From the NCBI GenBank assembly GCA_946409515.1, contig CAMJWS010000001.1, positions 127,557-191,556 on the forward strand: a stretch of 64,000 nucleotides of DNA. The letters run 5' to 3'. Below, piece by piece: positions 35,094-63,468 of this stretch. The DNA is from an uncultured Caryophanales bacterium. GTDB lineage: Bacteria > Bacillota_I > Bacilli_A > RFN20 > CAG-826. Positions within the stretch are counted from its first letter, which is position 1; each line of letters opens with the position of its first letter. The position numbers and the translations under genes are program-made. The notes under the pieces are model-generated. The model saw nothing but the letters and a program-made list of their open reading frames with translations, made no database searches and was not told the DNA's origin.

Positions 35094-38000
35094 TTATTCT
35101 TCATCAGCTTTCTTAAATTTATTAGTGCCTCTAACTGTTTCAATTAAAGCTTGCTTTTCTAATGGTCTGAAGAAGTAGAAGCCTTGTAATAAGGCATCAA
35201 CACCAACTTCTTTAATGAGTAAGTATTGGTCAATATTTTCAACACCGACGACAGAAGCTTTCATATCGAAACGATTGATTAATAAGAGTAATTGTTTCAA
35301 AGAGTTGAAACGTTGGTTATCACTATCGATGTGGGTAACAAGGTTACGGGAAATCTTCACTTCATCGAAGCCGATTTCTTTTAAGATTTCAATAGAGATA
35401 TATCGGCCTGTATATTGGTCACACACCAAGACGATATTGAGATCTCTAAGCATCTTAGCAATGCTCTTGAATTCATCAATATGAGTAGAAACATCATGTT
35501 CTGGAATTTCGAAAGCGATAAAGTGCTTTGGAAGTTTCAAGTCATCAATATATTTCTTAATATCTTTAGCGAAGTTCTTATCGGTAAAGAAGGAATAGTC
35601 AGTATTAAGACCAAATCTTCTAAAGCCTAAAGATGAGAAGAACATCGCACCATATTCTTTATATAAAGAAGCGGTGAAATCAAGAAGGGCGTGAGAAATG
35701 ATGCCGATTTGGTTATATTTCGCAGCGATATTAACGACTTCATCAGTACGCATCGCGATATTACGATAATCATCAGTAATACGTAAGAGAAGTTCTGCGC
35801 CATAGATTTGTTTATCAGAAGAATTAACCATTGGTTGTAAGTTGATATCGTATGTCTTATCGCCGAATGATTTCTTAATAATAGAAAGAATGTATTCTTC
35901 CCTATTCGCACTTCTAGAATAATCATTTTCATCAAAATAAATATAATCCTTATTAACTTCATAACGGCCTCTTGTGGAGAAGACATCAGCTTGTTTAATT
36001 AAGCTTGTAGCGTTAGGGAAGGCACGAGGATAAGAAACTGGTAAGAAGGTGATGTTTAAAACATAGTCCGCGGACTTATCAAGATTCTTCGCTACAGCGT
36101 AAATCTTTTCACATTCATCTAAGATGTCAGTTTGGCCGTATTCGTAGAATAACATCGCCATGAATTGATTAGTGTAATAGAAGATATTTTCTAAACCATT
36201 ATGTAACTTCTTAAGACGTTTAGCGAAGTCACGAAGAATAGATAAAGTACCTTCAGAACCATGTTCTTGCACAAGTTCTTCTAAGTTATCAATTCTTAAT
36301 AAGAGTAAGTAACCTTTACCGTTCATTGTGTAGATATCATCTAAGTTCTCCACGAGAGTGTGGAAGGAATTGATGAGAAGGTCTTGGTTATAACGGCTAT
36401 GTGATTTATGAGAATAGACATTCTTAATCGCTAAAACACGATAGATATTATGGTGATCAGATAACACTAAGGATGTCTCATAGTTATCACGACCATATTT
36501 CACTGTTTTCTTATTGCCTGTAAGAAGTGGACAATCTTTGCAAGGCATATCTAAGCCATATAAAGCCTTATGACATTTTTCACCATATTTAACATTTGGG
36601 AATAAGGCTTTTAATGTTTGACTACTATTTAAGAGTGTGAAGTCATCAGCACTGACACGATAGGTAGAGAAATCAGCGAGTTTAAGAATCGCATCAATTT
36701 CATCAAATGAACTTTCGATTTCACTATCACGCTTAGCGCTAATTAAGTAAGAAGCGATTCTAGTGCAAAGCATTAACATGGATTCTTGAATATAAGAATC
36801 GAACTTTAATTCCTTGTTTTTATTGAAGAAATAAATGACACCTTGCACCACATCATTGCTCTTAATGACATAATAGAAGCCACTTTCTAGTCCAATGCGG
36901 TCTAAATGACGTCCTAAGGCGTTATTCGCATGATTCCTGAATGAGAAGTAGTAAGAACCATTATCGTCCTTAGTTTCGTCCATTATGCGGATTAAAGCCT
37001 GGTTGACGTTACCATCATGAGATAACGGATTGATTTCATCATCATTTGCTTGATAGGCAATGATGTAGCGTTTGTTAACAGCATCAAGAGCGATGATACC
37101 AGCATAGTTGATACCAAAGTATTGTGCGGTGGTTTTAATCGTATTTTGAATAATCTTATTATTCTCACTAGCGTTATTGGAACCATGTTTCATCGCGGAT
37201 AAAGGTGCGATGATTTTACTCATGTTGTTGAGGTTTGTGGAATTTCTTAAAATGGCGTTACTCTTTAAGGAATGTAAACGGTTTGGTAAATAGAAGAAAA
37301 TATCGTTACCTTGACGTTTCGCATAACGCAAGTCTGGGAAAATTTCATTTACATCACTATATGGGTAGCAAACCACAGAGAAATGCGCGGTTAATGGAGT
37401 AATACCATCTGCGAGACGTTTAGAAATAGAAGCGCTACGCATACATGTTTCTAATTGCTCTCTGATTTTGCTTAAAGAATCGATTCTTGGTAAATAGAGA
37501 TAAACACTCTTACTATCTTCACCTAAAACATATAAAGGCTGCTCATAGTCATAGAAGTTTTCTTGCAAGACTTTAAGAATATAATCGATATTCTTTTTGG
37601 TTAACGGTTCATCTTCAAGTTCATAATATGTTTCGATGATGATATTACGATAGTTTTGTGATTTGAAGATGATGTTATCAATCTCTCTTTTGAACGATTC
37701 AAAAGTGACAAGGTTCTTTTCCTTATCGATATAATCTAATTCAATATCAAGGAAGTTATTTTCATTAGGAATAATAGTCGCACCGATTAATTCTTTTCTT
37801 AAGATATCAACGTGCTCATTTAATTCTGCGATTTCTTTATATTGCTTACTTGGATATTCACGGAAATCGTTTTCGTTTCTAGCGATGTTTTCAAAGTTAG
37901 AAATAGTGACACCATATAAGCCTTTAAAGAAGACGTTTCTAAAGCGGCTAACGACGTAGATTGTATAAAGAATATATAAGGCAATCATCGCCGCGGAGAA

Positions 38001-38159
38001 AATGATTAAGGCAATAAAGAATGCCATATCGTTAGTTCTAGCGTAGAAGAATGTGAAAAGCGTCATGCCTAAAGCAAAGACAATTAAGAAGACGATTGGG
38101 AAGCTCATCACGAAACGGAAGAAGGTTTTGATTGAACGGCTTTTAAATGATTTTAGCAT
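35094..38159 (-). CDS. membrane-anchored GGDEF/GAF-like protein with degenerate EAL domain
   Basis: A 1021-residue signalling protein, last gene of the fibre operon. Two membrane helices lie at about 14-66. The middle holds a sensor-like domain (about 325-480) and a degenerate nucleotide-cyclase-like domain (about 590-745). The C-terminal 250 residues follow the EAL plan (NLQPMVNSSDKQIYGAELLL onwards) but key residues are lost: the DDFG motif reads CDQYTG, KID reads KIS, and EGVE reads VGVE. It probably binds c-di-GMP or a partner without hydrolysing it. GGAGG for its ATG lies inside the end of the upstream gene, so translation is coupled. Confidence 0.75.
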   Translation of the reverse strand: MLKSFKSRSIKTFFRFVMSFPIVFLIVFALGMTLFTFFYARTNDMAFFIALIIFSAAMIALYILYTIYVVSRFRNVFFKGLYGVTISNFENIARNENDFREYPSKQYKEIAELNEHVDILRKELIGATIIPNENNFLDIELDYIDKEKNLVTFESFKREIDNIIFKSQNYRNIIIETYYELEDEPLTKKNIDYILKVLQENFYDYEQPLYVLGEDSKSVYLYLPRIDSLSKIREQLETCMRSASISKRLADGITPLTAHFSVVCYPYSDVNEIFPDLRYAKRQGNDIFFYLPNRLHSLKSNAILRNSTNLNNMSKIIAPLSAMKHGSNNASENNKIIQNTIKTTAQYFGINYAGIIALDAVNKRYIIAYQANDDEINPLSHDGNVNQALIRIMDETKDDNGSYYFSFRNHANNALGRHLDRIGLESGFYYVIKSNDVVQGVIYFFNKNKELKFDSYIQESMLMLCTRIASYLISAKRDSEIESSFDEIDAILKLADFSTYRVSADDFTLLNSSQTLKALFPNVKYGEKCHKALYGLDMPCKDCPLLTGNKKTVKYGRDNYETSLVLSDHHNIYRVLAIKNVYSHKSHSRYNQDLLINSFHTLVENLDDIYTMNGKGYLLLLRIDNLEELVQEHGSEGTLSILRDFAKRLKKLHNGLENIFYYTNQFMAMLFYEYGQTDILDECEKIYAVAKNLDKSADYVLNITFLPVSYPRAFPNATSLIKQADVFSTRGRYEVNKDYIYFDENDYSRSANREEYILSIIKKSFGDKTYDINLQPMVNSSDKQIYGAELLLRITDDYRNIAMRTDEVVNIAAKYNQIGIISHALLDFTASLYKEYGAMFFSSLGFRRFGLNTDYSFFTDKNFAKDIKKYIDDLKLPKHFIAFEIPEHDVSTHIDEFKSIAKMLRDLNIVLVCDQYTGRYISIEILKEIGFDEVKISRNLVTHIDSDNQRFNSLKQLLLLINRFDMKASVVGVENIDQYLLIKEVGVDALLQGFYFFRPLEKQALIETVRGTNKFKKADEE

Positions 38160-38160
38160 T

Positions 38161-38904
38161 TTACTTACCTCCTTCAGTGATGATTTCATTACGACCAATG
38201 TCACCGATACAAGTAACAACGGCTTTACCGATATTGACGTATTCTTTCATCGCTTTTAAGTATGTATTAACATCACTATTCTTATCTAAGTAACGTTCCA
38301 CGACTTTGATAGAAACAAATGGCACCTTTGTGAGGTTGCACGCTAAAGCGGCACCACCCGTATTTGTGTCAAATACCACGTTATTATCAAAACCTAAGAC
38401 ATGTTCAAACTCTTCAATGTCATAGATTTGACCTGGTTTATGATAGTCCACACTCGTGGAAATGAAGTTAGCTTCTTTAAAGATAGAGAATGTTCTCTTT
38501 TCAAAGGCGCTTTCAATATAGGAAACAACGTCTTCAGAAGCATCGAAGACTTGTTCAAAGCCTGGGATTTGACCATATTTAACATTATCTTCGTTAACTT
38601 GGTCAACATCTCCCAAGATAACGTGCTTAGAAATAACAATATCTAATGGTTTTAAGTCTTTCTTATAAGCGATACAACGACCCACCACTAAAACGAGGAT
38701 AACGAAATATTTCTCAATGAGATATAACGTTAGAGCACTGCTCAAGTAATTTGTTTTTACTTGATCCACTAACATGACCGCTTGGTTAAAGATTGTGCCA
38801 ATGGTCACTTTGAATTTGCCCATGACGAGTTCTTCTCTTTTGTTAGTGATGACACTTTCGAAGTAGAGGATATCATCATGTTGGCTACCAATAATCATGA
38901 TCAT
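38161..38904 (-). CDS. MTA/SAH nucleosidase-fold protein, catalytic residues missing
   Basis: A 247-residue protein with the phosphorylase/nucleosidase plan: N-terminal MIIGSQHDDI, LDIVISKHVILGDVD in place of the GDIVV segment, KYGQIPG, and FDTNTGGAALACNLTKVPFVSIKVV aligning with the EMEATAIAHVC...VPFVVVRAISD block of MTA/SAH nucleosidase. The N-terminal Glu, the ribose-binding Met-Glu pair and the catalytic Asp of that enzyme all appear replaced. It is probably a binding or regulatory pseudoenzyme. It overlaps the EAL gene by four bases (ATGA), between two c-di-GMP-type proteins. Confidence 0.6.
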   Translation of the reverse strand: MIMIIGSQHDDILYFESVITNKREELVMGKFKVTIGTIFNQAVMLVDQVKTNYLSSALTLYLIEKYFVILVLVVGRCIAYKKDLKPLDIVISKHVILGDVDQVNEDNVKYGQIPGFEQVFDASEDVVSYIESAFEKRTFSIFKEANFISTSVDYHKPGQIYDIEEFEHVLGFDNNVVFDTNTGGAALACNLTKVPFVSIKVVERYLDKNSDVNTYLKAMKEYVNIGKAVVTCIGDIGRNEIITEGGK

Positions 38905-40442
38905 GCGTTAAGACCCTCCTTCTTTTCAAATGGGTTATTATCTAAGAATTTTTCGAAAGCTTTCTTTTCTAAGGCTTCAGAATAATAGAAACCTTGGATC
39001 GTATCGCACTTAGCTTTCTTTAAAATCTCAACTTGTTCTCTGTTATCGACACCTTCAGCGACAACTTCCATACCATTGATCTTACAAAGACCAATTAAGA
39101 ATCTCACGATTTCACGTGATTTAGTGTCGTTAACGATGCCATCAATAAATGACTTATCAATCTTAACAACGTCGAATGGAATCTTTCTTAAGTTACCGAC
39201 GTTAGAGAAACCAATACCAAAGTCATCCATTAAGACGCGAATACCGTTTTCTTTAAGCTTCTTAATAATGGAGATGGATAAGAATTGGTTAGCTTGAGAA
39301 GTCGCTTCTGTAATTTCAATTTCAATTAAATTCGCAGGGACATGGAATTCTTCTAAGATACCCATAATCGTATCTAAGAAGTTCGCACTATAGAATTCGA
39401 ATAAGGAGAAGTTAACAGAGACTGGTAAGGCTCTTCTACCTCTTCTAATTAATTCATTTAAGTCTTCACAAACTTGTCTTAAGACATAGATATCAATATC
39501 GTGAATTAAACCAATGGCTTCCGCTTTGTTAAGGAACTTAGTAGGCGCTAATAAACCATACTTTTTACTGTTCCATCTAATTAAAGCTTCTGAAGAAATA
39601 AACTGTCTCTTGGCTAAATCAAATTTAGGTTGATAATAAACAACGAATTCTTTATTTTCTAAAGCTTGAGTTAATTCTTCAATATCACTAGAAGTAACAC
39701 TCTTACGGAATGTCTCTTGATAATAAGTAATTGTTTCAAAGTTCTTTTCGGAATTGTCTCTCGCTAATAAAGCGTTTTCAATTTGGTGAGTTAATTGTCC
39801 ACTATCAAAGACACGAGCAACACCGAAGAATGGTTGCACCCAGATATGACGGCAGTTTTGTTCACCAAATTCATAAGCATCTTTAGCGATAGTTTCACAG
39901 ATATTTTGAATAGATTGTTCATTTTGTCTTGAGCAATAGATTAAGAAAGAACCACGAGAGAAACCATAGACAAAGTCTCTCTTCTTTCCACCGACCTTCA
40001 TTGGTAATTGTTCTAAGAAATTAGCGATGTGGTTATTGATTAAATAAATTTCGTGGTTTCTATTAACGTTTTGGGAAATAACAAGAGAAGAGAATGTGAA
40101 AGCAATAATATGTTCTGTTTTCTTACCAATTCTATTGAATCTTGAAATTAATTCAACACGCTTTTGGAAAGCATACATATTAAAGAAAGCACTTCTCACA
40201 CCTAAGTTATATTCGTTATCGTCTTGTAATGTCTTAATCATCGATAAGTTAGAAACATATAAGTAAACAAAGGTAACGAAAATAACGACCAAACCAATAG
40301 TGATGAGGTTTAGTAAATTGTTTAAGAAAATATTGTCACCGAAAACACCACCGATGAGGGCTAAACCTGTAACTACGGCAACGGCCGCAAGAAGAACAGC
40401 CGTGATGATAACTATAGCTAATCTTCCTCTACTTGCTTTCAT
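38901..40442 (-). CDS. EAL-domain c-di-GMP phosphodiesterase, membrane anchored
   Basis: A 513-residue protein with two membrane helices (about 8-32 and 40-63), a degenerate GGDEF-like region (about 95-245) and a full EAL domain (about 255-500). Catalytic and metal-binding residues are present: SEALIRW (EAL), the Asn in PVSVNFS, the Glu in IEIEITEA, MDDFGIGFSN (DD), VKIDKSFI (Lys), VVAEGVD and QGFYYS. It should hydrolyse c-di-GMP to pGpG. Being downstream of a predicted c-di-GMP riboswitch in the same operon it can close a feedback loop. Its stop is TGA, the only one noted in the window. Confidence 0.88.
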   Translation of the reverse strand: MKASRGRLAIVIITAVLLAAVAVVTGLALIGGVFGDNIFLNNLLNLITIGLVVIFVTFVYLYVSNLSMIKTLQDDNEYNLGVRSAFFNMYAFQKRVELISRFNRIGKKTEHIIAFTFSSLVISQNVNRNHEIYLINNHIANFLEQLPMKVGGKKRDFVYGFSRGSFLIYCSRQNEQSIQNICETIAKDAYEFGEQNCRHIWVQPFFGVARVFDSGQLTHQIENALLARDNSEKNFETITYYQETFRKSVTSSDIEELTQALENKEFVVYYQPKFDLAKRQFISSEALIRWNSKKYGLLAPTKFLNKAEAIGLIHDIDIYVLRQVCEDLNELIRRGRRALPVSVNFSLFEFYSANFLDTIMGILEEFHVPANLIEIEITEATSQANQFLSISIIKKLKENGIRVLMDDFGIGFSNVGNLRKIPFDVVKIDKSFIDGIVNDTKSREIVRFLIGLCKINGMEVVAEGVDNREQVEILKKAKCDTIQGFYYSEALEKKAFEKFLDNNPFEKKEGLNA

Positions 40443-41292
40443 GGCTTTCTCCTTTCTTCTTGCTAATCATTTCTTCTAAGAGTTGTTCTTTAAGTCTTTT
40501 TTTATCTTCTTCGGAAAGAGTTTTAGGACCATTGCTATTGCTAGCTTGTCCTCCCGCTCCTTCTTGAGCAACTTCTGGCTCTTTATAAGCCTTAAAGATA
40601 TCAATGACACTAGATACCACTAAATAGAATGCTGGGATTAATAGGAGTACCAATAATCCAATAGGTGAACCAACAAACGAGAAGATACCACCTAAGAATG
40701 CAGAGTTAATTGTCACCCTACCAAGGACTTCTTTTTCTGTGAAAGCTTGATATTGGTTAATAACGATATCAGGTTCTCCTTCTTTCCAACCTAAGTTTGT
40801 GGATCTTGTATTAATACCGGCGGTGATAAATGTATATTTACCTTTGCCTTTTTCCGCACCATTATTAACATGAATTTCTTTGACTCTATGGGTCATAGGA
40901 ACGCCAGTAGGATCAGTTCTTTTTGTTAATTCTGGATTATTCATTGGTGAAGTATATTCATTATTGATGTTATAAACGTCAACGAATGTGATATCCACGT
41001 CTTCACCTTTATTGAAACGCTCATAAATCTTATCAGCGTCTTCATTATAAGTAATAAGAGCGGTACCAACTTTGTATTTTGGATCCATGGAATCTGTTTG
41101 AACAACGAAGGTACCATAGCCAAATCTAAGTTGTTGGTTATAATGATCTTTCTTATGAACTAAGCCATCAATTTGGCCCGCAAGGACGAAGGCAAAAAGC
41201 ACAAGGAAAAGACCAGTAAGGACCCATTCAATTATCTTTCTGGCCTTACTTTTTGGCTTTTTCACACGTTTTTCCTTCACTTGTTCGTCCAT
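40429..41292 (-). CDS. sipW: SipW-like type I signal peptidase (S26B)
   Basis: Cleaves signal peptides of TasA/camelysin-like proteins. The 287-residue protein has an N-terminal membrane helix (about 20-42), the nucleophile Ser68 in TDSMDPKYKVG, and His135 in MTHRV in place of the Lys used by most bacterial enzymes; a Ser-His pair is the mark of the SipW/archaeal/ER type. A second helix lies at about 203-232, then a charged tail of 55 residues. It sits in the operon with its probable substrates. It overlaps the EAL gene by 14 bases. Confidence 0.88.
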   Translation of the reverse strand: MDEQVKEKRVKKPKSKARKIIEWVLTGLFLVLFAFVLAGQIDGLVHKKDHYNQQLRFGYGTFVVQTDSMDPKYKVGTALITYNEDADKIYERFNKGEDVDITFVDVYNINNEYTSPMNNPELTKRTDPTGVPMTHRVKEIHVNNGAEKGKGKYTFITAGINTRSTNLGWKEGEPDIVINQYQAFTEKEVLGRVTINSAFLGGIFSFVGSPIGLLVLLLIPAFYLVVSSVIDIFKAYKEPEVAQEGAGGQASNSNGPKTLSEEDKKRLKEQLLEEMISKKKGESHESK

Positions 41293-41303: not shown

Positions 41304-43664
41304 TTATTTCTTTTCTTCAACCTTCTTAGGCTCTAATGGGTTTTTAGCCTTTGGCTTTTTATAGATAACGGCAACAGTGCCATCACTTCTCTTAAAGAAC
41401 TTTCTGATTGGTCTACCTGCAGGTTTGGCAGGTTCATTAGCCTCTTTCTTTGGAAGCGGCTTTGGATTTCTTAGTTGCGGCCAAATCTCATCAGCGGCTT
41501 GTTCAAAGCTCACTGGCTTAATATTTTTGTTCTTTTCAGTTTCGTAAATGATAACTTTAGAGCCATCAGACCTTCTAAAGGTCTTCTTGATAGGTCTACC
41601 CGCTGGTTGAGGCTTCACTGGAGCTTCTTCAACGGCTGGAGTTTCTCGAATAGGAGCTTCGACAACCGGTTCTTCAGCAATAGCTGGCTCTTCCACTTTT
41701 GATTCTGGCTCAGTGATTGGAGTTGGATTATTTAACTGTGGCCAGACTTCATCAGCGGCTTGTTCAAATGTCACTGGTTTTGCCTTTGTATTATTTTCGG
41801 TTTCATAGATGATGACTTTTGAGCCATCAGATCTCCTGAACTGAATCTTAACCTTACGACCCTCTGGTTGAGAATCCACTGGGACTGATTCTGTAGCTTT
41901 ATCTTCTGTAGCTTCATCAGTAGCTTCTTCAGACGCCATTACAGGAATAGACTCAACTGGTTCTACTTCAATAGGAGCTTGTTCCACTGGTGCTTCATTG
42001 TTAGCCTCTTGAACTGGAACTTCAACAACCGGTTCTTCAACAGGTGCTTCAACAGCAACTGGTTCTGGCTCTTTGACTTGTTCTTCCACTGGAGCAGGAG
42101 TAGGAACTGGAACTTCCTTAACAACTTCTTTAACCACCACTTTTTCCACGACTTTTGGTAATGGATGTGGGTGTTTAAGTTGTGGCCAAATCTCATCAGC
42201 AGCTTCTTCAAATGTCACTGTTGGTGTATAGACCTTTTCAACTTTTTCTTCTTTCTTTTTGCCCTTCTTAGGTTCTTCTACTGGGGCATTATTAGCGTTA
42301 ACGATTTCGGTAACGTCTTGTTTAGAAGCATCGATGATTTCTCTACGCATCGCGTTGAGTAATTCTTCTTCTTCTCTTCTAATAGCTTCTTTCTCCATTT
42401 CAAGGAGTTTAAGTCTAGCTTGTTCACGTTTCGCTAAGATGTCTTTGACTTTCTTTTCGAAGGCGTTAGCTTCTTTTTGTCTACGCTTTAATAAGTCATT
42501 CTTGGCTTTAATATCTTGTTGATTTTCCTTCTTAGCGGCATATTCATCTTCGTAATATTCTTTTTCTTTCTTTGTTGGGTGGAGTGGTAAGTCTTTCTTA
42601 ATCTTACTGTCTAAATAGGCTTGATAGCCTTCATCCACTCTCGCGAAAGAAATTGGGCCTTCTAATAATGGACCATAGATAAATGATTCGTCTTCCATAG
42701 AAGTAAGAATTCTTGGCTTATAAACCTTAGTGTTAACTTTCTTTTCACGAGCCATGCCGTTACCTCTTAAGGTCACATAGTTAGCAAATAAGGTTCTATT
42801 TAATTCAGAAATTTCTTCATCATTGAATAATGAATAGTTTTCATCAATCTTATAGTCGACACCTAATCTATCGTAGGTTTCGATAAACCTATAAACTTCA
42901 TAGCAGTGTCTATATTTAGGATTCTTTCTAATGATGTTGGTTTGAACGATTGGGTTTCTAACATCTTTTTCATTCTTCATTTGTTTCATAAATGGAGAAT
43001 TATAGAAATAGGAAATATAGTCTCTAGTTTGTTGAATTCTTTCAACGTAACTACTGTTAATTTTGGTTTCTTCGTCTTCTTTCTTGTAAGAAACTTTAAT
43101 CTTTGTTTCAATTTCTACTTCCGCACCATCTACGATAGATTTGTTTTTGAAATATAAGACTTCTTCGTTATGCAATTCTGCGAATTTAGAAACGAATTCA
43201 TAACGTTTAGAAATGAATAAGTAAAGTCTTCTTACGAAGGTAGCAATGAATCTATTTTCATAAGTATGTAAATCATCATCACTACTCATGGATAAAATCT
43301 TAGAAGGAATGACGTTTCCGTATTCATCGACTTCTTTAACGTATTGGGTATGGCTCGCTAAGTGTTGCACAGATTCAGATGTGACTTTTCTAGCGAGTTC
43401 AACTGGTGTTAAGTTACCCACTATTTTGGTGTGTTGTCTTGGATTAGCGATGATATCGCCTAAATCGAAGATACAGCCTTCAATGATTTCAATCCAGCTC
43501 TTATCGAATGAGGAAGAAGCTAAACGGTCAAGTCTTAAATAAGAGTTCTTGCCCGCACTTAAAGAATCGTAGATTTCCTTTGCGTGGTCGTCTTTTACGA
43601 TTTTCTTTATAGCGCTATGGTACGCCTTATTTAGTTGTTTGTTTGTGGTGACCGTTTTTTTCAT
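41304..43664 (-). CDS. DUF2357 (McrC-type) protein with repetitive C-terminal half, no nuclease seen
   Basis: A 786-residue soluble protein. The N-terminal 330 residues carry DUF2357 features, including DDDLHTYENRFIATFVRRL, the ENRF signature of McrC-like proteins. A coiled coil rich in Lys and Glu follows (about 375-450). The C-terminal half alternates Pro/Glu/Val-rich linkers with three copies of [TS]FE[EQ]AADE[IV]WPQL and three of GR..[IK]K..[FR]RRSDG[ST]...IIYE-type modules. No PD-(D/E)xK nuclease pattern is seen, unlike true McrC. It directly follows the AAA+ gene (19-base gap), the usual McrB-McrC layout. A role in assembly rather than DNA cleavage is inferred. Confidence 0.7.
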   Translation of the reverse strand: MKKTVTTNKQLNKAYHSAIKKIVKDDHAKEIYDSLSAGKNSYLRLDRLASSSFDKSWIEIIEGCIFDLGDIIANPRQHTKIVGNLTPVELARKVTSESVQHLASHTQYVKEVDEYGNVIPSKILSMSSDDDLHTYENRFIATFVRRLYLFISKRYEFVSKFAELHNEEVLYFKNKSIVDGAEVEIETKIKVSYKKEDEETKINSSYVERIQQTRDYISYFYNSPFMKQMKNEKDVRNPIVQTNIIRKNPKYRHCYEVYRFIETYDRLGVDYKIDENYSLFNDEEISELNRTLFANYVTLRGNGMAREKKVNTKVYKPRILTSMEDESFIYGPLLEGPISFARVDEGYQAYLDSKIKKDLPLHPTKKEKEYYEDEYAAKKENQQDIKAKNDLLKRRQKEANAFEKKVKDILAKREQARLKLLEMEKEAIRREEEELLNAMRREIIDASKQDVTEIVNANNAPVEEPKKGKKKEEKVEKVYTPTVTFEEAADEIWPQLKHPHPLPKVVEKVVVKEVVKEVPVPTPAPVEEQVKEPEPVAVEAPVEEPVVEVPVQEANNEAPVEQAPIEVEPVESIPVMASEEATDEATEDKATESVPVDSQPEGRKVKIQFRRSDGSKVIIYETENNTKAKPVTFEQAADEVWPQLNNPTPITEPESKVEEPAIAEEPVVEAPIRETPAVEEAPVKPQPAGRPIKKTFRRSDGSKVIIYETEKNKNIKPVSFEQAADEIWPQLRNPKPLPKKEANEPAKPAGRPIRKFFKRSDGTVAVIYKKPKAKNPLEPKKVEEKK

Positions 43665-50751: not shown

Positions 50752-50816
50752 AAATAGCTAACTCTGTTTTACTCCCTTTTAAGGTTTTTGTTGTTTTGTC
50801 CCAATGGGTGAGAAAT

Positions 50817-50998: not shown

Positions 50999-51004
50999 AA
51001 ATAC

Positions 51005-52561: not shown

Positions 52562-52565
52562 ATAT

Positions 52566-55800: not shown

Positions 55801-57758
55801 TCGCTATTGCCAGTATGGAAGAGGATGGTTTTACCACATCTTTCTTCAAAAATAACTGTTCTAAGGCTTTCGTTCATGATGAAAGAATAGCTAGGAATGA
55901 AGAGATTAAATGTATCTGAGTCATTATTATTACCCGCTTGAACTTTGCTCTTAACACTGCCTCTAAAGATAACTTTTTCTAGAAGTGGGCAGCCTGCAAA
56001 TGAGTTAGAACCAAAATCGTTGTTATCATCCTCACTACCACCAAGACCATAAGTATCATTATCGCCATTAGAAATGCCGAAATGTTCGAGCGTTCTTGGT
56101 AAAACAAGGGTTGTTAATGTGTAGTTTGTGTCGCCATTTTTCTTAAGATAGCTCTTATGAATACCACTTGTCGAAGATTTAGAATTATCACTATTGCCCA
56201 TTTTAAAGAATGCTTCTCTACCAATCGTCTTTAAAGCAGATTTAGCGTCATCATAGACCCATTCAAAAACAGTAAGCGCTTTTAAGTGTTTGCCGTTTTC
56301 TGATGAAGTACCAAAAGCTCTCATGCCAACCGCTTTTAAGGAGTATGGTAATTTAAGAGTTTTTATGTTCGCTAATTTATCCATGTCAACAAAGGCTTTA
56401 TTACCAATGACTTCTAATTCAGTAAGACCATCAAGGATAATTCTTGGAGAAAGTTCTTCGCCACCTTGAATTGTGCTCTCATCACTAGAACAGGCTGTAT
56501 TATCATCGATAACGATTAATTTGTCATAATCACTATTGAACATACTTGGTTCAATTCTCTTTAAAGTTTTTGGAAGATAAAGACGTTCAAGTTTGCTCTT
56601 AACTGTGTTAAAGGCATCAGTTGAAATCTTTCTAACTTTATTACCTGAACCACTTGGAAGTTCATTAGGAACAGAGAGGAATTTAACAGGTGTGCCTTCA
56701 ATATCAGTTGGTCCGATATAGGAAGTAATTTCAACATCACCATTAATGGTGGTAAAAATCCAGTCGTTAGTGTAAGAAGCACCAGAGGCTGTGATTTCAT
56801 ATGTATATAAGTTACTAGCGGTCGCAGGATTGGTTGTTTCATTTTTCCAACGCCACTTGTTATCTGTGTGACGGTCTAACCAAGCTTGAACATCACTTGT
56901 GTCACCGACAAGCCAGAACTTAAGGCTGTCGTTACATCCATCGAAAGCTTTATCTTCGATAACACCAATTGGTAAATTTGTTTGCGCATCTTTAGCAAAG
57001 AAAGAAGATGAAATATAAACGCTCTTCAAACTTGCACATCCTTGGAATGCACGAGAACGAATAGTTTTAATATTCATAAACGCTAAAGTGGAATATAAAG
57101 AACGACAGTTATTGAAGGCTTCATATTCGATTTCTTCAATAGATTGAGGAAGGACTAATTCTTTTAAGTTATGACAGTTAAAGAAGCAGAAAGAAGGAAT
57201 CGTTGTTAAAGCACAAGGAATTCTTTCTTGTTGGTCATCGTCTTCCACTTCGCTACAAGAACAAGCAGAAGAAACTTCTGATGTTGTTGTGGTATTTTGA
57301 ATGGAAGCTTTGGTTAAATCTTTACAAGCATAAAACGCTGCTTCACCAATTTCATAAATCGTAGCAGGAATGGTCAAAGATTTGATTTTGCAACCCATGA
57401 AGGCTTCAAAGTCGATGACTGTAATGCCGGATGGAATACTAATTGAAGAGGCTTTACTATTTGCAAAGCCATATCTCCAAATACCAGTGACTGGTTTATT
57501 GTTGTATGTTGCACTGATTCTGATTGAACTTGTTGATGATTTAGCGCTTTCTTTTAAAGCGACAGCGTATTCTGTATCACCGTTAATGGAGTAATAAACA
57601 AAGTCACCACTGACCGATTCTTGTGTACCACTTAAAAGGTATTTTGGAGTGATACGAAGAGAATGATTGACATCACTATTACCACTGCAAGCGGCACCAG
57701 CAAAAGGAACAATCGCTATTAAGAATCCGAAATATTTCAATAGTTTTCTAAATTTCAT
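52857..57758 (-). CDS. giant BspA-like leucine-rich-repeat lipoprotein
   Basis: A 1633-residue surface lipoprotein. The signal peptide ends AGAAC with Cys24 lipidated. Most of the length consists of BspA-type (LRR_5) repeats, with units such as SLTIPATIYEIGEAAFYAC and AVSIPSTITKIGEYAFMRA repeated at about 23-25 residues and broken by longer inserts. Such repeats form a curved adhesion surface that binds host or bacterial ligands. A CSCS cluster lies at about 172-175. The C-terminus is beta-rich without a sorting signal. GGAGG precedes the ATG ten bases after the upstream gene. Confidence 0.88.
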   Translation of the reverse strand: MKFRKLLKYFGFLIAIVPFAGAACSGNSDVNHSLRITPKYLLSGTQESVSGDFVYYSINGDTEYAVALKESAKSSTSSIRISATYNNKPVTGIWRYGFANSKASSISIPSGITVIDFEAFMGCKIKSLTIPATIYEIGEAAFYACKDLTKASIQNTTTTSEVSSACSCSEVEDDDQQERIPCALTTIPSFCFFNCHNLKELVLPQSIEEIEYEAFNNCRSLYSTLAFMNIKTIRSRAFQGCASLKSVYISSSFFAKDAQTNLPIGVIEDKAFDGCNDSLKFWLVGDTSDVQAWLDRHTDNKWRWKNETTNPATASNLYTYEITASGASYTNDWIFTTINGDVEITSYIGPTDIEGTPVKFLSVPNELPSGSGNKVRKISTDAFNTVKSKLERLYLPKTLKRIEPSMFNSDYDKLIVIDDNTACSSDESTIQGGEELSPRIILDGLTELEVIGNKAFVDMDKLANIKTLKLPYSLKAVGMRAFGTSSENGKHLKALTVFEWVYDDAKSALKTIGREAFFKMGNSDNSKSSTSGIHKSYLKKNGDTNYTLTTLVLPRTLEHFGISNGDNDTYGLGGSEDDNNDFGSNSFAGCPLLEKVIFRGSVKSKVQAGNNNDSDTFNLFIPSYSFIMNESLRTVIFEERCGKTILFHTGNSDHPCVGWSSGKSKNDLGGDPGVQEIFLPNRYTTLRMARYTFQGNSRGAVYLSGEFGTNMYGHNKDTTFKTYMGNISLNSVPVTDVKEWYQIGKENTHGYDFDPDTTRNFYGLDQYMPVYSNVHYELTIDEDYASIDTFVGLGPTNSENDYIIKDKCAFVCGASTATMANYLYDRHDSNFTGTAIVPATVNRVNGTSCTVTVIGDSAFSAAFCDTTSYNGYTNFKDLTAVSIPSTITKIGEYAFMRAYGVTNLFAYNASTGVSLGDYVMPTSLTEVGRQAFAFCNINKFLNFPTNVVFYENTSTISSSAYTTSVFSNNFSLRKITFGNNATSSTNYTTTTYLADNGDTYTSAIYSTNAVSKNKLSLLLVLNRDSADYLATSEDSRSVQETIGQSAIDCSEFNGRFKNGYLYGAFKMCYWIDSLVVGKANQTTRDQPLISGVYNVAENKDTYLYLAQKYDFTGNATALKVISFGNAAAIETPAYSFEGCENLSKVRLPRIVGGSIPEGLFAFAENANIVFEVPSDTSGNNFTPCSPGVLDLTFTGYTSIEAGAFKGTNITTLIAPITSTFTIEEEAFSDCPSLASINFANVTGEVHLNAAFKRSAIPNNLFNYGTSALIHFNDGCFSDCTFPGKTFTFPAKTATIGNSCFENCSTLETVTAAANLTELERKVVDNGPGLNNDGNNTGFKQIGDYAFNMCTNLKNFDFSKFPDLERIGHFAFGMKAVSGSTIAYEAEGDKNNSASICPGGVVVLPASLTNIGVGAFHTSKVVSVTFKSHSIKFERANRFTADTRLKTNNNHGGSQFRYCYSLTKVFFEDPDCAWTTPYMLKSEGGQDNYFSKCTSLTVLVMPRGYDIQCPRYTGTTDSTRCDSMVWESSKSLKVYVWHTVNDLDSSKPAISDYWHRMAASDNAPIVFHVGSNADVVKQVGGSYVEIKTGTVYWTLGANNEVVYLGTASVNATTGLVTFATNGYTADSSGVHYNG

Positions 57759-57768
57759 AATGACCTCC

Positions 57769-60700
57769 TTAACTACCTGCTGGATAAACAATTACCTGAC
57801 CATTACTTTCGATGCCTAACAAATTAATTGTTAGTTCTTTCTGATCACCGTTAGTAAGGTTCGGTTTATAGTTGTCTACCGCAACCCGTGTCATAACATC
57901 TATTAAATCTTGACCAGTTAATGTGGAAGCTATCAAAAACTTACCAGTAGACTGATCAAACGTGAATGAGAGATTTGATGGAATAGAATCGCCAAACATT
58001 GAACGATCTGAGTTAACGAAAGCAACGTATAATCTACGGTTGCCAAGTTTGTTACCATCTGTTGGACTGGATGGATTATAGGCTGTGATATCAGAAACGA
58101 TGATGTTTTCTGTACCATCTAATGCGAAACGTGGAGTATTGATGAAGTCGACGTTTTCAACTCTATCTGTACTAGCGAAAACGTTATCATCGAAGTCGAA
58201 TTGACCATCATCTTGACCTTGAGCACACATATAATAAATCTTTGGTACGCATTGATTGTTTCTTGCAGCGGAACCAATACAATATCTACCTTTTGGTAAA
58301 CAGAATGTATGGGCAAATAATCTAGTTTTGCCATTTTCATAGCCAAATTCAGTTGTGTTGTATTCGGATGGAACTGTGGCGTCTGTCGCGTTTGTCGCAG
58401 CTGTAAATGTGCCACCACTACTATATGTACCGATTTCACCTTTTTGAGTCAAAGAGTTAACACGGTAATCAAAGTAAGCCAGACTATTGGTTGTAGGCAT
58501 GAAGAATGCATAGTCAGGATCATCATAGCTTTGAGTGAATCTCATATCATAGTCATCCATCGTGTAATCAATCTGACCTGTGAAGTCGGAATTATCAATC
58601 TTATAAACACCTAAAGCAGATGGTAAAGAATTATCGCTAGGTGCGGCGATAACGGTAACGTTAGCTAGTTCATTTTTAATTTCAAAGTTGACCATGTTGC
58701 TGACATATGGATTATGTTCAGCATCCTCTAAGGCGTAGCAAGTACGCGCCACACCTTGATATGGAGTGAGGTCTGGACAAGCAAAGCTTGCGGCAAAAGA
58801 ACTAACTTCTTGACGGAGGTTATTCTTAAGCATGACACCACACTTATTGTTACCGACTGGAATGTGGTAACTATTCTGGTCCACTAATTTATAGTTAAAA
58901 TAGTTAGCCATGAAGGCACCACCATCTGTTTCAGTATCAACATCAGAGAAGTAGAAACCTTTACCTCTACGATAGCCTGGATCAAGTTTGAAACGCACAA
59001 AGTAATTTTGTCTTGCTTCTCTAGTTTCAAATGATTCTCTAGTTACTTGGTCTTTTCTTGGGAAATGTCTACCAAGTAAGATACTTGTGGAAGAAGCGTT
59101 TTGGAAGTTATCAACGTAACTACCAAAGTTTAAACCAGTACCATATGTATTATGGTAAGTCTTATTGAATTCACCAGTGGAATAATAAATATAGTAATTA
59201 TCATCACCAGAAGCATCATCAATTGTTAAGTCTTCATCTGTCATAACAACAGATCTATCAATATTTTCACCAGCGTTAGCGTTCATACCTGTGGTACGAG
59301 CGTCAGTGGCAACAGTAAAGACACCTAAGTCAGTATTAGTAACGATTTGACGGCCTCTAAATGTCACAGCGTCTTCAGCGATGGTAATATAGTTGCCTTC
59401 GTAATAACGTAAGTATTGCATGTACTTAGTATTTTGATTTGGAGTATAAGTTACACCAGCGGTAATACCAGATTGAGTGTGTGAACCATCGAATGATGTA
59501 TCAGTAATGATGTCGCGATAAATAGTTGTGAAGTCAAGAACACCGATACTCTTACCTTCTTTAGCACCGACATCGGATTCACTCGCTAAAATGTTTTGAA
59601 CAGTACCACCAACACGACCAATTAAGCCTAAGTCAGAACCATTAGGTAAACTATTGTAGCTAGCGCCACCGTTGTTCATTTGGAAAGCACCGTTGTAGAC
59701 GTAACAGTTAGAGATAGAACCATCACAGTGACCAACGACTAAACCGATGTTATTACCATGGTCACCACTCACACGGACACCCATTGAAATAAATGTCGCA
59801 GAGTTAGAATCTAAAGTGAAGTCATATTCTAAGTTAAGTAAAACTTTGGAGTGTTTTTGACCATATCTATCAACACTAGAAACAATTAAAGAGGCAGCGG
59901 AAGAAGCTTGAATTGGGAACTTAGCGTCCACTTCATTCTTCTTTTCTTTGAAGAATTCAAAGACTCTTGTTAAGTCAGGCAAAACTTCACCATCTTCATT
60001 AAGGGTGACTAAGTCACCAGAGAGTAATGTGGAGAAGATATAACTATTAGATGGAGCGTGAATTGAAACAGTTGGTACCGAGGAAGAACCTTGTTCTGTA
60101 TATTCAAAGTCAGTCGCATTATTTGCGTTAAAGTAAGTGAAGATTGTATTTGGATAATCCTTAGTAAGATTGATTGATTCGCCACCATCGTTTGGCGCAT
60201 AAACAAACCAAGCATTGTTACCGATTGTGCTTTCAGGACTATATAGGTCAGCATATGCGTCTATATAGCCTAATGCGTTAATCGTCACATTACTAAGGAA
60301 TAAATTCTTAACCATTGACCCGTGCGCGGTATAACCAAATAAGCCAGAGTCTTGTGGGTTGGAATAAACGTTTAAGTTCTTAATTTCAACGTTTTGGCCA
60401 TCAAATACACCATAGAATGGCAAGGCTTCAGAACCAATCGCGTTGATTGGGTTAGTGTCTAAGTTAGAACCACTCATATCAAGATATGGTTTCTTTTCTG
60501 AAGATGAGTCATTGATGTAACACATTGGTACACCGTTTGAATCAACACCACCTAAGTCAACTTTACCTAATTGGAAATATTTCTTTTCACCATAGACACC
60601 TAAACCTTGAAGACGGGATAAGTTATATAAGTGACGTGGACGAGTAATGACAAATGGATCTTCTTCGGTACCGCTACCACATTCATAGTAGGAACGTAAG

Positions 60701-60840
60701 GAAACTTCACCATATGTACCATTACCGTTAACATATTTGCTATATAAAGAGAGAGATAAACCCATATTTAAAATAGTCGCAGCAATTAATACGGTGACAG
60801 TAGATGTTAGAACGATGCTAAGTCTCTTTTTATTCTTCAT
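57769..60840 (-). CDS. large exported surface protein, GLUG-like
   Basis: A 1023-residue protein with an N-terminal signal/anchor (RLSIVLTSTVTVLIAATILN). Just after it comes ECGSGTEEDPFVITRPRHLY, a sequence typical of adhesins with GLUG or similar beta-helix repeats, and then YGVFDGQNVEIKNLNVYSNP and GLFGYTAHGSMVKNLFLSNV, GLUG-style units. The rest is beta-rich and acidic. No LPXTG is seen. The signal lacks an AWF motif but has a similar LSLYSKYVNGNGTYGEVSL layout. An adhesive or fibre-associated role is inferred from repeats and operon. Confidence 0.72.
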   Translation of the reverse strand: MKNKKRLSIVLTSTVTVLIAATILNMGLSLSLYSKYVNGNGTYGEVSLRSYYECGSGTEEDPFVITRPRHLYNLSRLQGLGVYGEKKYFQLGKVDLGGVDSNGVPMCYINDSSSEKKPYLDMSGSNLDTNPINAIGSEALPFYGVFDGQNVEIKNLNVYSNPQDSGLFGYTAHGSMVKNLFLSNVTINALGYIDAYADLYSPESTIGNNAWFVYAPNDGGESINLTKDYPNTIFTYFNANNATDFEYTEQGSSSVPTVSIHAPSNSYIFSTLLSGDLVTLNEDGEVLPDLTRVFEFFKEKKNEVDAKFPIQASSAASLIVSSVDRYGQKHSKVLLNLEYDFTLDSNSATFISMGVRVSGDHGNNIGLVVGHCDGSISNCYVYNGAFQMNNGGASYNSLPNGSDLGLIGRVGGTVQNILASESDVGAKEGKSIGVLDFTTIYRDIITDTSFDGSHTQSGITAGVTYTPNQNTKYMQYLRYYEGNYITIAEDAVTFRGRQIVTNTDLGVFTVATDARTTGMNANAGENIDRSVVMTDEDLTIDDASGDDNYYIYYSTGEFNKTYHNTYGTGLNFGSYVDNFQNASSTSILLGRHFPRKDQVTRESFETREARQNYFVRFKLDPGYRRGKGFYFSDVDTETDGGAFMANYFNYKLVDQNSYHIPVGNNKCGVMLKNNLRQEVSSFAASFACPDLTPYQGVARTCYALEDAEHNPYVSNMVNFEIKNELANVTVIAAPSDNSLPSALGVYKIDNSDFTGQIDYTMDDYDMRFTQSYDDPDYAFFMPTTNSLAYFDYRVNSLTQKGEIGTYSSGGTFTAATNATDATVPSEYNTTEFGYENGKTRLFAHTFCLPKGRYCIGSAARNNQCVPKIYYMCAQGQDDGQFDFDDNVFASTDRVENVDFINTPRFALDGTENIIVSDITAYNPSSPTDGNKLGNRRLYVAFVNSDRSMFGDSIPSNLSFTFDQSTGKFLIASTLTGQDLIDVMTRVAVDNYKPNLTNGDQKELTINLLGIESNGQVIVYPAGS

Positions 60841-60849: not shown

Positions 60850-62382
60850 CTAATCACCTGCTTCTTCTTTGTGTTGTGTGGCAAAGAAGTGGAAACCAAA
60901 ATCACGGTCTAATAAATATGTTTTACCTAGACGGTTTTTATCAAGGAAATAAGTATTGTGTTCATAGTCATAATCAATGCAAATGTAGCAATGATAAATG
61001 TTATCTAGACCACTATCAGGGTTATTGGCCGCAACCAAAGTTGAATCATTGGCTTCTTTTAAGTTAAGTGTGCAGTCAATTTCTTTATCGTAAGTTGTGC
61101 CATTAATAAATTTTTGAGAATTTGCATCACCAACACGATGCATTGATGCCCAAACAGCATCTGCGTTTGCGTATGGTGTCTTAGTGAACTGTGCATAGAA
61201 ATTATAGAAATCAGAGGCTCTAAGCATATTTTGATTATTTTCATCAACATAGCCCACTAGGTTATGAGTAGTATCAGCATATTTATCCGCTAAGTTAAAG
61301 ATCGAAGCGCTTGAAGCATCAGTTCTTTCGATTTTTAAGCTAGCGTCTACTTCATTAGCGTTTTTAAAGTTAAGAATAACGTCTAAAATGAGCGAAGTGT
61401 TTTGATCATAAATCGCTTGGTTCATATAACTTTCAATGGTTGGATAATCATCCTTATCAACAGAACCAGCGTAGTCAATACTAACTTTGGTTGGGTCAAG
61501 AGAGTTATTGACGATAACGGAAATATCTTTTTTTGCACCATCATCTCTTGTATGTAAGGTGATTTCTAAACTATTTGGAGTATATGAGAATGAGTAAATA
61601 CCACTTCTTAAGCAAAGGAGTCTATCACCAATTTCATCATCGTTGTCATCAACGATTCTAAAAGCAGATGAAGCTTCTGTAATACTATTAAGCGGGAAGT
61701 AATTATATAAGTAAGTCTTTTGACCAGTTTGTGTAATCTCAAGAGTTTCTAAAAGTCTGAAAGATGAGCCCGCTGAAACAACAACGTTATCTAAAATAGC
61801 AGGTTTATTGTTCGCAACATCTTCTCTTAAACCAAAGGCATGCGCTGCTGGAAGAGACCATGAATCAGCGACACCAGAGAAGACATCATCTCCCACAAGA
61901 TAATAACGGAATTCAGGAGCGTAGTTTGCAGATGGAATATAAATATTGCTTGAGGACGCACTAGCGGAACTTGTGGTTGTGGTACCCGCCGCTTTAGTGC
62001 CTAATGTAATAATCGCATTATCAGAAGTGATGCTAATATCATCGATATCATCTCCGTCAAATTCTAGTTCGTGATCTTCAAGAACGTATTTCTTCACAGT
62101 GCCTTCACTATCGTAGTCAACGAATTCAGTGGAGTTTTGATAGTATGGATAAACATACTTATAAGCCACGACTTTTCTGACTTCGACATCAAGGTCACCA
62201 CTGATCATATCGATTTGTGAATCTCTACTATTTAAGTTAAACCACGCCATTGTGGCCATCACAACGGAAGTGATGTTGCCAACAGCGAGTAAGCCAATAC
62301 CGACATACTTAAGAGTACGATGGGTTTTACCACCGTTTTGCTTATTTGAGAATATGTTTTTGATTCTATCAAACACTTTCAT
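60850..62382 (-). CDS. SipW-dependent-type exported protein in the surface operon
   Basis: A 510-residue protein. The basic N-terminus (about 1-25) is followed by LKYVGIGLLAVGNITSVVMA and TMAWFNLNSRDSQIDMISGD, a SipW-type signal. The mature part has VEVRKVVAYKYVYPYYQNST, a Thr/Ser/Ala linker (about 125-150) and a beta-rich half. It closes with YIPSAN-like and IYHCYICIDYDYEH strands. AGGAG-type sequence lies upstream of the ATG and it is 11 bases after the previous gene. It may be a minor fibre or anchor subunit. Confidence 0.7.
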   Translation of the reverse strand: MKVFDRIKNIFSNKQNGGKTHRTLKYVGIGLLAVGNITSVVMATMAWFNLNSRDSQIDMISGDLDVEVRKVVAYKYVYPYYQNSTEFVDYDSEGTVKKYVLEDHELEFDGDDIDDISITSDNAIITLGTKAAGTTTTSSASASSSNIYIPSANYAPEFRYYLVGDDVFSGVADSWSLPAAHAFGLREDVANNKPAILDNVVVSAGSSFRLLETLEITQTGQKTYLYNYFPLNSITEASSAFRIVDDNDDEIGDRLLCLRSGIYSFSYTPNSLEITLHTRDDGAKKDISVIVNNSLDPTKVSIDYAGSVDKDDYPTIESYMNQAIYDQNTSLILDVILNFKNANEVDASLKIERTDASSASIFNLADKYADTTHNLVGYVDENNQNMLRASDFYNFYAQFTKTPYANADAVWASMHRVGDANSQKFINGTTYDKEIDCTLNLKEANDSTLVAANNPDSGLDNIYHCYICIDYDYEHNTYFLDKNRLGKTYLLDRDFGFHFFATQHKEEAGD

Positions 62383-62393
62383 CTTCTTTTCTC

Positions 62394-63260
62394 CTAAGCA
62401 AGTCTAAACATCAAATTTGTAAGAGATAACTTCTCATAGCAGTTACTATTTCCGAGAGTATCTTTTACGTAGTAAGGGTTGTTATAAGTATAATATGTGG
62501 AACTATCATCTGAAAACTCTATAGAGAAATAAATTACAACACGTTTGGTATTTCCCGCTGTTCCAGAGATTGAATTCAAGATAGTAATTGATGGTTTTGT
62601 AGTTGGAGCAATGTTGCTTTGACTATAAGTAAACTTATCAACAAGAGTGTTGTTTGTAATATCGGTGTTATAAGTCGCAAAGCCACTTGCGATATCATCA
62701 GTGACTTCAGCAGTGCTATCAATGTAATAAGCACCACCATACATATTGATAGCCCATGATAAAGAGATTTCAACATCTTCGCTATTAACTTGTGTCACGA
62801 CAGAAGGAAGAGTAACTTCACTCCAAGAGAACAAATTAAATGAACTTAATGAACCTTCAGTCACCACGATAGCATAAGTAAGTTTATGAGCAGGCCATAA
62901 ATGATTGATATCTGTAGGAGCATCAGCATTTGTGACGTTGCCACTATTATCGTAATTAACTTTGACGAAAACTGGATTAGCATAAGCGTTTTCATAACCG
63001 GCGAAAGTATCAATACCAGCGTTATAGTTACCGTCTTTAGTTGTGCTTTGATCAACAGCAAAATGACGGAGATAATATAATTCAAAATCAAGGCCGGTTT
63101 CAGCTTTAATGGTAATGGAGTTAGTCACAGCGGTAACGCTTTGGTTAGTAACAAACCATGCATATGTACCAGTAAAAACAGATGCAAGAGAAAAGATTGC
63201 AGTTGCAGTTGCACCAGCGATTTTTAATCTTGTACGTGTTTTGCTTGAGTAACCCTTCAT
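62394..63260 (-). CDS. SipW-dependent-type exported protein, first gene of the surface operon
   Basis: A 288-residue protein. The N-terminus MKGYSSKTRTRLKIAGATAT leads to FTGTYAWFVTNQSVTAVTNSI, a clear SipW-type signal with the TYAWF motif. The mature part has ITIKAETGLDFELYYLRHF and RVVIYFSIEFSDDSSTYY, TasA-like strands. I chose the ATG at 63260; an in-frame TTG at 63275 lies inside the 3' arm of the leader hairpin. No separate ribosome-binding site exists between the hairpin and the ATG, so leader folding could control translation directly. Confidence 0.75.
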   Translation of the reverse strand: MKGYSSKTRTRLKIAGATATAIFSLASVFTGTYAWFVTNQSVTAVTNSITIKAETGLDFELYYLRHFAVDQSTTKDGNYNAGIDTFAGYENAYANPVFVKVNYDNSGNVTNADAPTDINHLWPAHKLTYAIVVTEGSLSSFNLFSWSEVTLPSVVTQVNSEDVEISLSWAINMYGGAYYIDSTAEVTDDIASGFATYNTDITNNTLVDKFTYSQSNIAPTTKPSITILNSISGTAGNTKRVVIYFSIEFSDDSSTYYTYNNPYYVKDTLGNSNCYEKLSLTNLMFRLA

Positions 63261-63265
63261 AAATT

Positions 63266-63434
63266 TAAAAGCCAATTGCCTATCAATAACGGAATCGACC
63301 CGTAAGGCAACTGGCTGTCTCCTAAAGAATATAAAACCTCAACTGTGATTAACAATTGAGGTTGCTGGCTATCTTTATTGTAAGACCCTATAGTTTTGCG
63401 TCACTAGATTACTCTAGTTTTGCTCTTTTCTCAC
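63266..63434 (-). ncRNA. class I cyclic-di-GMP (GEMM) riboswitch, leader of the surface operon
   Basis: Read on the minus strand. GAGCAAAA precedes stem CTAGA-GTAA-TCTAG (63417-63404), a GNRA hairpin. GACGCAAAACTATAGGG follows and then TCTTACAATAAAGATAGCCAG. The core matches the leader at 50817-50998 while the stems differ with compensating changes, which supports the fold. The AACCTCAA/TTGAGGTT hairpin (63364-63333) follows, then a second GACAGCCAGTTGCCT (63319-63305). This can pair with AGGCAATTGGCT (63281-63270), which is followed by TTTTAAATTT ten bases before the ATG. Confidence 0.85.
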
Positions 63435-63439
63435 TTAAA

Positions 63440-63468
63440 TATTTAACACTATCTTGTAAAGATGTCAA
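63440..63468 (-). promoter_or_regulatory. promoter of the surface operon
   Basis: Minus strand perfect TTGACA (63468-63463), 17 bases, TAAATA (63445-63440). Transcription begins just before the riboswitch core. Confidence 0.75.

Follow-up and report, generated by a model that had tools for sequence, protein, structure and literature searches.

Within the 64,000-nucleotide stretch of DNA analyzed here (the window), part of the 1.32-Mb, 92% complete genome of an uncultured Caryophanales bacterium, a locus of about 28 kb combines genes for exported surface proteins, a SipW-type signal peptidase, a membrane-anchored McrB-like AAA+ NTPase with a DUF2357 partner, and cyclic di-GMP (c-di-GMP)-related proteins with two c-di-GMP riboswitches. 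The locus is probably (at a probability of about 0.62) a c-di-GMP-induced assembly system for a surface fiber or surface complex. The evidence is computational, and comprises gene content, synteny, the linkage of riboswitch to machine, the states of catalytic motifs, and a covarying antiterminator in the riboswitch leader. An earlier reading of the DNA (the original prediction) had proposed a locus of surface proteins, SipW, an McrB/DUF2357 pair, EAL proteins, and riboswitches. That locus is real: each open reading frame (ORF) claimed for it was located at its position on the minus strand, and the genes are conserved in relatives. Because this conservation extends across the class, chance assembly of the locus is untenable. 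The features are as follows.

63357-63434, minus strand: c-di-GMP-I riboswitch aptamer 1, upstream of putative cargo unit A (Rfam RF01051, 49.8 bits; gathering score 35)
63260-63362, minus strand: riboswitch 1 expression platform, read from the sequence
62394-63260, minus strand: A1, exported, AWF SipW-type signal
60850-62382, minus strand: A2, exported, AWF signal
57769-60840, minus strand: A3, exported, 1023 residues, without AW[FY] signal, no Pfam match
52857-57791, minus strand: A4, 1644-residue BspA-type leucine-rich repeat (LRR) protein, lipoprotein-like N-terminus, putative variable cargo (Pfam LRR_5, E = 5e-67)
51659-52591, minus strand: B1, exported, AWF signal, may be cargo or major subunit
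51092-51466, minus strand: B2, small membrane protein, C-terminal cytosolic tail motif LTEEQKEELRQELLRDL
50871-51000, minus strand: c-di-GMP-I riboswitch aptamer 2, upstream of the putative assembly operon (Rfam, 47.6 bits; 57.3 bits with the second 3' half)
50806-50931, minus strand: riboswitch 2 expression platform, including conserved UUGGGACA
49849-50751, minus strand: C1, conserved exported/membrane protein, polybasic N-terminus, without AW[FY]
48852-49868, minus strand: C2, putative AWF substrate, paralog of C3-C5 (hhalign probability 98.6-100)
47602-48753, minus strand: C3, putative AWY substrate, paralog of C2, C4, and C5
46295-47551, minus strand: C4, putative AWY substrate, paralog of C2, C3, and C5
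45210-46289, minus strand: C5, putative AWY substrate adjoining the ATPase gene, paralog of C2-C4
43684-45210, minus strand: membrane-anchored McrB-like AAA+ NTPase, N-terminal transmembrane (TM) segment, NxD-type motif (GTANNDD)
41304-43664, minus strand: DUF2357 (McrC N-domain) homolog without recognized nuclease
40429-41292, minus strand: SipW-type signal peptidase, TDSM Ser and THR His, tail motif LSEEDKKRLKEQLLEEM
38901-40442, minus strand: EAL1, membrane-anchored EAL phosphodiesterase, intact catalytic motifs (Pfam EAL, 4e-67)
38161-38904, minus strand: MTAN-fold pseudoenzyme (TIGR01704, 9e-11)
35094-38219, minus strand: EAL2, membrane protein whose GGDEF and EAL domains are degenerate, candidate c-di-GMP receptor

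With the ATPase as query, loci were retrieved from 16 relatives, and in all of them the order C1-C5, ATPase, DUF2357, SipW, EAL1, MTAN, EAL2 is kept where the contig allows, with C2 absent from a few. The synteny check that had been suggested, whether sipW, the McrB-like ATPase, and DUF2357 genes stay together beside genes for AW[FY]-signal proteins, thus returned a conserved order in 16 of 16 fetched relatives, and the core order is also kept through much of the taxonomic order. Complete genomes with the core include some in family f15. The conserved core extends from B2/C1 to EAL2. A1-A4 vary among relatives (A4-like genes lie upstream in L011 and L018 only) and were dropped as part of the conserved machine because they are not conserved among the 16. 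Of the proposal that one machine spans the whole 28 kb, it is therefore the core that stands, with A1-A4 as variable cargo. For A1 itself, ATG at 63260 is a more likely start codon than TTG at 63275.

Across the order, a DUF2357 profile matches in 137 of 245 genomes, in three score tiers. The upper and middle tiers are located in SipW loci; the lowest consists of tandem ATPase-DUF2357-ATPase genes beside surface proteins or of an ATPase joined in one protein to some twelve TM segments. The ATPases of the tandem loci (L070-L078, L125-L127) are TM-anchored and their neighbors include transglutaminase, BspA-LRR, and other large surface proteins, and in the fused form (L079-L082) the adjoining DUF2357 protein has a zinc-ribbon-like C-terminus. 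Instead of nucleases, these sister-clade machines have giant surface proteins as neighbors. In the other orders of the class, SipW genes flank the ATPase-DUF2357 pair, frequently on either side, accompanied by AW[FY], C1, or C5 proteins and, in some loci only, by EAL genes. SipW directly follows DUF2357 in most loci. Matches in a phylum-wide sample are confined to the class. On the ATPase tree, the SipW-linked label requires 8 changes versus 30.7 when shuffled and does not form a single clade; SipW lies beside the pair in nearly all members of the SipW-linked clade, and four further rows marked as SipW-less reflect contig ends or a SipW gene slightly beyond the distance used.

The c-di-GMP riboswitch follows the same distribution. 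Within the order, it occurs in 89 of 108 genomes with an upper- or middle-tier DUF2357 gene versus 19 of the 137 others (Fisher odds ratio 29, p = 2e-28, a value that overstates significance as the test treats related genomes as independent). Less exposed to this non-independence is riboswitch position: a same-strand riboswitch lies no more than 9 kb upstream at at least 53 of 117 loci, a lower bound as many contigs end early, and downstream at 11. Among carriers that lie outside the order, the riboswitch is found in 64 of 70 genomes and lies upstream of 32 of 72 loci. No riboswitch lies upstream of the related non-SipW McrB/DUF2357 pairs tested, either at low-tier DUF2357 loci within the order (0/29) or at SipW-less paralogs outside it (0/10). 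The aptamer stands directly before C1 in each of the 14 loci for which the leader was both covered and scanned.

In the host genome, the two aptamers of the locus are the only c-di-GMP-I riboswitches that exceed the gathering score, which bears out the GEMM cores that had been assigned to two of the transcription units. The anatomy of the leader suggests the direction in which they act. In single-terminator orthologs, the aptamer's 3' strand doubles as the 5' arm of the terminator T2; ligand binding should therefore block T2, and c-di-GMP would turn the leader ON. The U-tract of T2 also takes part in a helix of X with X' that covaries from species to species, with a mean pairing energy of -11.8 kcal/mol for true partners versus -6.1 kcal/mol for swapped ones (0/10000 permutations). 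Such a covarying antiterminator is an addition to the usual c-di-GMP-I (GEMM) arrangement, as are, in the genus of the window, two terminators that each follow a 3' half of one aptamer. In that genus, the leader has in addition a terminator T1 and a further 3' half, each 3' half being tied to its own terminator, a layout seen in this genus and absent from the single-terminator orthologs L013, L015, L016, L084, L085, and L087. In riboswitch 2, T1 occupies 50931-50894, T2 50883-50811, and the antiterminator helix X 50873-50854 with X' at 50820-50806; in riboswitch 1, T1 (about 63362-63334) is followed by a second aptamer-like 3' half that is the 5' arm of T2 (about 63320-63261). The single aptamer 5' half with two 3' halves in both leaders (50806-51000 and 63260-63434, minus strand) resembles two checkpoints with a common sensor. 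The elements GGAUGAUAGGC and UUGGGACA are conserved 3' of the aptamer (L129-L148 and other leaders), and a permissive Rfam scan of the window leader returned no second known RNA. Elsewhere, in G289, G336, and G416, two or three c-di-GMP-I aptamers occur in tandem within a few hundred bases.

A second line of evidence concerns the exported proteins and their peptidase. A hydrophobic stretch ending in AW[FY] is present in seven locus proteins (A1, A2, B1, and C2-C5), one more than the six of the original prediction, and in none of the 39 ORFs of at least 100 residues lying entirely before position 35094, the counts covering ORFs of the window. C2-C5 are mutually paralogous by hhalign, with C1 separate. 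The peptidase matches NF046067 at E = 5e-9, with a score below the NCBIfam cut-off, and its Ser and His motifs, TDSM and THR, are invariant among orthologs, in agreement with its designation as SipW-type; it is also the one protein in the whole genome that matches the SipW profile. Its C-terminal tail motif is shared with B2 and with no other protein among all ORFs of about 97 loci, a pattern that was written after inspection of these two proteins and so speaks to specificity, not significance. SipW and B2 may dock on the AAA+ ring by way of this common cytosolic tail.

For the ATPase, matches to McrB (PDB 6hz4, E = 4e-4) and to Pfam AAA_5, and an N-terminal TM segment that recurs in nearly all homologs, agree with the membrane McrB-like AAA+ protein that had been proposed. 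Among its orthologs, which are 70-98% identical, the Walker A, acidic Walker B, and NxD motifs are all invariant, which suggests active hydrolysis; the motif GTANNDD (N349-N350-D351, invariant in 17 orthologs) is of the NxD rather than the NxxD type. The TM segment is followed by a charged helix-like stretch. Assignment of the partner to DUF2357 is indirect, as the window protein has no Pfam match of its own and the identity claimed for it is supported by way of a family member in L069 that matches PF09823 at 36.0 bits (cut-off 23.3); residues including YEN are invariant throughout the family. The modeled fragment of this protein ends in a predicted helix (372-399), and its Pro/Glu/Lys-rich, disordered-looking tail carries three copies of AADEIWPQL, a repeat seen in the window's genus in copy numbers that differ among relatives. 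Pfam and NCBIfam scans of the locus recognized no nuclease family, HEPN domain, or methyltransferase.

The three remaining core genes encode a c-di-GMP enzyme and two proteins with altered active sites, much as had been predicted, the residue states being read by eye on alignments. In EAL1, the motifs EAL, N, E.TE, DDFG, KID, and AEG are complete and invariant in 11 orthologs, the state of an active-looking enzyme. EAL2 shows conserved losses at invariant positions (EAL to ELL, DD to DQ, and AEGVE to VVGVE). In the MTAN-like protein, both catalytic residues have been replaced: the position of the catalytic Asp is an invariant Arg (R204) and the glutamate of MEaaA is gone. As a membrane GGDEF-EAL protein in which catalytic residues are lost and the fold is kept, EAL2 resembles receptors of the LapD/FimX type and is a candidate c-di-GMP binder; unlike them, it is encoded beside an MTAN-fold pseudoenzyme. 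We infer that these two proteins sense c-di-GMP. Eleven GGDEF and seven EAL matches genome-wide indicate that the organism is able to make and degrade the signal.

How this locus relates to described systems qualifies the claim that it was new. Bell et al. (eLife 2024; PMC11090510, section 7) named CoCoPALM in a few main-text sentences and linked it to pilus assembly; it consists of an McrB-like protein of the NxD type that carries a TM/coiled-coil domain resembling FtsB, a homolog of McrC in which a coiled coil is usual, and a protein of the signal peptidase family. The locus likewise has an NxD McrB-like ATPase with an N-terminal TM segment, a DUF2357 partner, and an adjoining signal peptidase, and from these sequence features its core is probably CoCoPALM. 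The association of McrB and McrC homologs with a signal peptidase had thus been named by 2024, and the substrates and the c-di-GMP control are what is new: relative to CoCoPALM, the novelties are the AW[FY] substrates, the missing nuclease, the c-di-GMP riboswitch, and the cassette of enzyme, receptor, and pseudoenzyme. The main text of the CoCoPALM paper (PMC11090510) is silent on AW[FY] substrates, c-di-GMP riboswitches, EAL/MTAN genes, and mechanism. Only that paper and its preprint were relevant to CoCoPALM in the open-access literature, where nothing was found that joins SipW with DUF2357, SipW/TasA with a c-di-GMP riboswitch, or CoCoPALM with AW[FY] or c-di-GMP; as Bell et al. announced a separate paper, prior claims may exist. 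The encoding of a dedicated SipW with exported substrates also recalls the SipW-TapA-TasA system of Bacillus and sipW-bsaA of Clostridium perfringens, which function in surface fibers and biofilm (PMC9674648, PMC10151520, PMC7395162). For these systems, neither an AAA+/DUF2357 pair nor a riboswitch is described in those papers, C. perfringens using a two-component system, and the locus substrates, unlike those of the SipW-TasA system, have no detectable similarity to TasA. The McrB-like AAA+ and DUF2357 pair is shared with McrBC/CoCoNuT Type IV restriction systems, from which the locus differs in having no recognized nuclease or DNA/RNA-binding domain and in its membrane anchor and surface-protein context.

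From these components a mechanism can be sketched. High c-di-GMP would bind the leader aptamers and block T2, allowing read-through into the assembly operon C1-EAL2, and cargo unit A would be switched on separately by its own aptamer. The exported proteins would be routed via Sec, and the dedicated SipW would cut their AW[FY] signals, freeing mature subunits that, by analogy with SipW-dependent fibers, might polymerize, with C1-C5 as fixed base or minor subunits and B1 and A1-A4 as cargo. At the inner face of the membrane, a CoCoPALM-type ring of the McrB-like NxD protein, stimulated by its nuclease-less DUF2357 partner, would power hand-over, assembly, or anchoring, and so drive or permit assembly; that the ATPase is the motor of fiber assembly is something we infer. 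Negative feedback would come from EAL1, which would lower c-di-GMP, and the signal would be sensed by the degenerate EAL2 together with the MTAN-like pseudoenzyme, the two EAL proteins closing the loop. In a more specific form, which we judge less likely than not, a restriction-derived AAA+ machine would assemble SipW-processed fibers under double gating by c-di-GMP, through the riboswitch and through post-translational action of EAL2/MTAN on the ATPase or SipW. Of the single fiber assembly and control machine originally envisaged, the conserved, riboswitch-controlled system of surface proteins, SipW, and McrB/DUF2357 has very strong support in synteny and linkage, and fiber assembly by the ATPase stays a conjecture.

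Several observations weigh against an assembly system. Structure prediction, which had been suggested as a check, was run for C5 and the DUF2357 N-domain, and neither model matched a known fold. The AlphaFold2 model of C5 is beta-rich (predicted local distance difference test (pLDDT) 80) and matched nothing in the PDB, TasA included, at E < 0.001, nor did Pfam or NCBIfam scans of the locus proteins find TasA/camelysin-family subunits; with C5 lacking a fold match to TasA or solved structures, the term fiber rests on the analogy of SipW and AW[FY] signals. The DUF2357 N-domain model is poor (pLDDT 62), and its fold search of the PDB, without a match, is uninformative. Known SipW/TasA fibers are assembled without an ATPase of this kind, and the SipW profile search could miss a divergent peptidase elsewhere in the genome. 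In other orders, SipW with a nearby EAL gene was flagged at 12 of 39 fetched loci, so that c-di-GMP enzymes do not belong to the constant parts of the system in those orders. The original prediction named McrB/DUF2357 pairs without SipW as evidence that would count against it; such pairs exist, most in other clades and eight nested inside the SipW-linked clade, and these eight indicate that the pair is not strictly tied to SipW. At least one of the eight carries, in place of SipW, a giant cadherin-like protein along with a GGDEF/EAL protein of degenerate sequence. Second ATPase-DUF2357 copies without SipW occur in L110, L113, L114, and L122, the copy in L110 lying beside a 2314-residue cadherin-like protein and a degenerate GGDEF/EAL protein.

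Other roles for the AAA+/DUF2357 pair have also to be considered. It could be an unfoldase or quality-control device that gates SipW or that acts on SipW precursors left uncleaved or stuck, extracting or degrading them. McrB rings are stimulated by McrC-type partners (PMC11090510), and both the placement of SipW directly after DUF2357 at most loci and the conserved cytosolic tail motif of SipW would suit such a role, which we nevertheless consider rather unlikely, as SipW is the only protease encoded in the locus and C1-C5 form a fixed set next to the ATPase, which points to a structural association. Improbable in our estimate is a role in positioning the fiber apparatus on the cell without powering its assembly: the invariant nucleotide-binding and NxD motifs point to hydrolysis and no positioning partner is seen in the locus, despite the precedent of the McrB-family protein PcdA, which positions division proteins in Staphylococcus aureus (PMC10602043), and the FtsB-like TM/coiled-coil domain of CoCoPALM (PMC11090510).

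The genes might instead serve separate, co-regulated functions, with AW[FY] proteins and SipW forming a Bacillus-like matrix and having nothing but the riboswitch in common with the ATPase, MTAN, and EAL genes. Regulons of c-di-GMP often unite independent outputs, and the EAL genes are variable outside the family; however, the unit of ATPase, DUF2357, SipW, and substrate is kept across several orders even without the EAL cassette, which makes this explanation no less improbable than positioning. It is highly improbable that the locus is a CoCoNuT-like system for Type IV restriction or phage defense, with the surface genes as mere neighbors. Most McrBC systems restrict (PMC11090510), and part of the ATPase sequence matches the PADLOC candidate PDC-M26A (3e-40). 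Restriction or defense as the main role was rejected, despite that partial match, on the lack of a nuclease recognized by Pfam or NCBIfam and the constant surface-protein context; the association with SipW and AW[FY] proteins in several orders, the TM anchor, the c-di-GMP riboswitch, the lack of recognized HEPN or methyltransferase domains, and near-constant presence in close relatives argue in the same direction.

If the locus is indeed a c-di-GMP-induced assembly system, a restriction-type AAA+ pair would have been turned into a surface-assembly machine, and c-di-GMP, mainly studied in other groups, would govern the surface of many gut and rumen Bacilli. The doubly gated form would, in addition, be a novel means of constructing and controlling a surface fiber, found across many uncultured Bacilli. 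The literature found gives no substrates, regulation, or function for CoCoPALM; on each of these the locus offers a testable hypothesis, namely AW[FY] proteins as substrates, control by a c-di-GMP riboswitch, and a role at the surface, and the role of nuclease-less McrB/DUF2357 pairs becomes directly testable.

The host is a gut bacterium whose closest named relatives are metagenome-assembled genomes of Bacilli/Erysipelotrichaceae, many of them sampled from rumen and other forestomach. The locus is bordered upstream of unit A by a gene for a desulfoferrodoxin-family protein (63521-63928, minus strand), which also lies beside the locus in L007, L008, and L013. At the other end, convergent with EAL2, is a polytopic membrane protein that by eye resembles TrkH/KtrB-like potassium transporters (33675-35087, plus strand). 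In a neighboring region of one relative (L008, 281-450, minus strand), a lysine riboswitch scores 100 bits.

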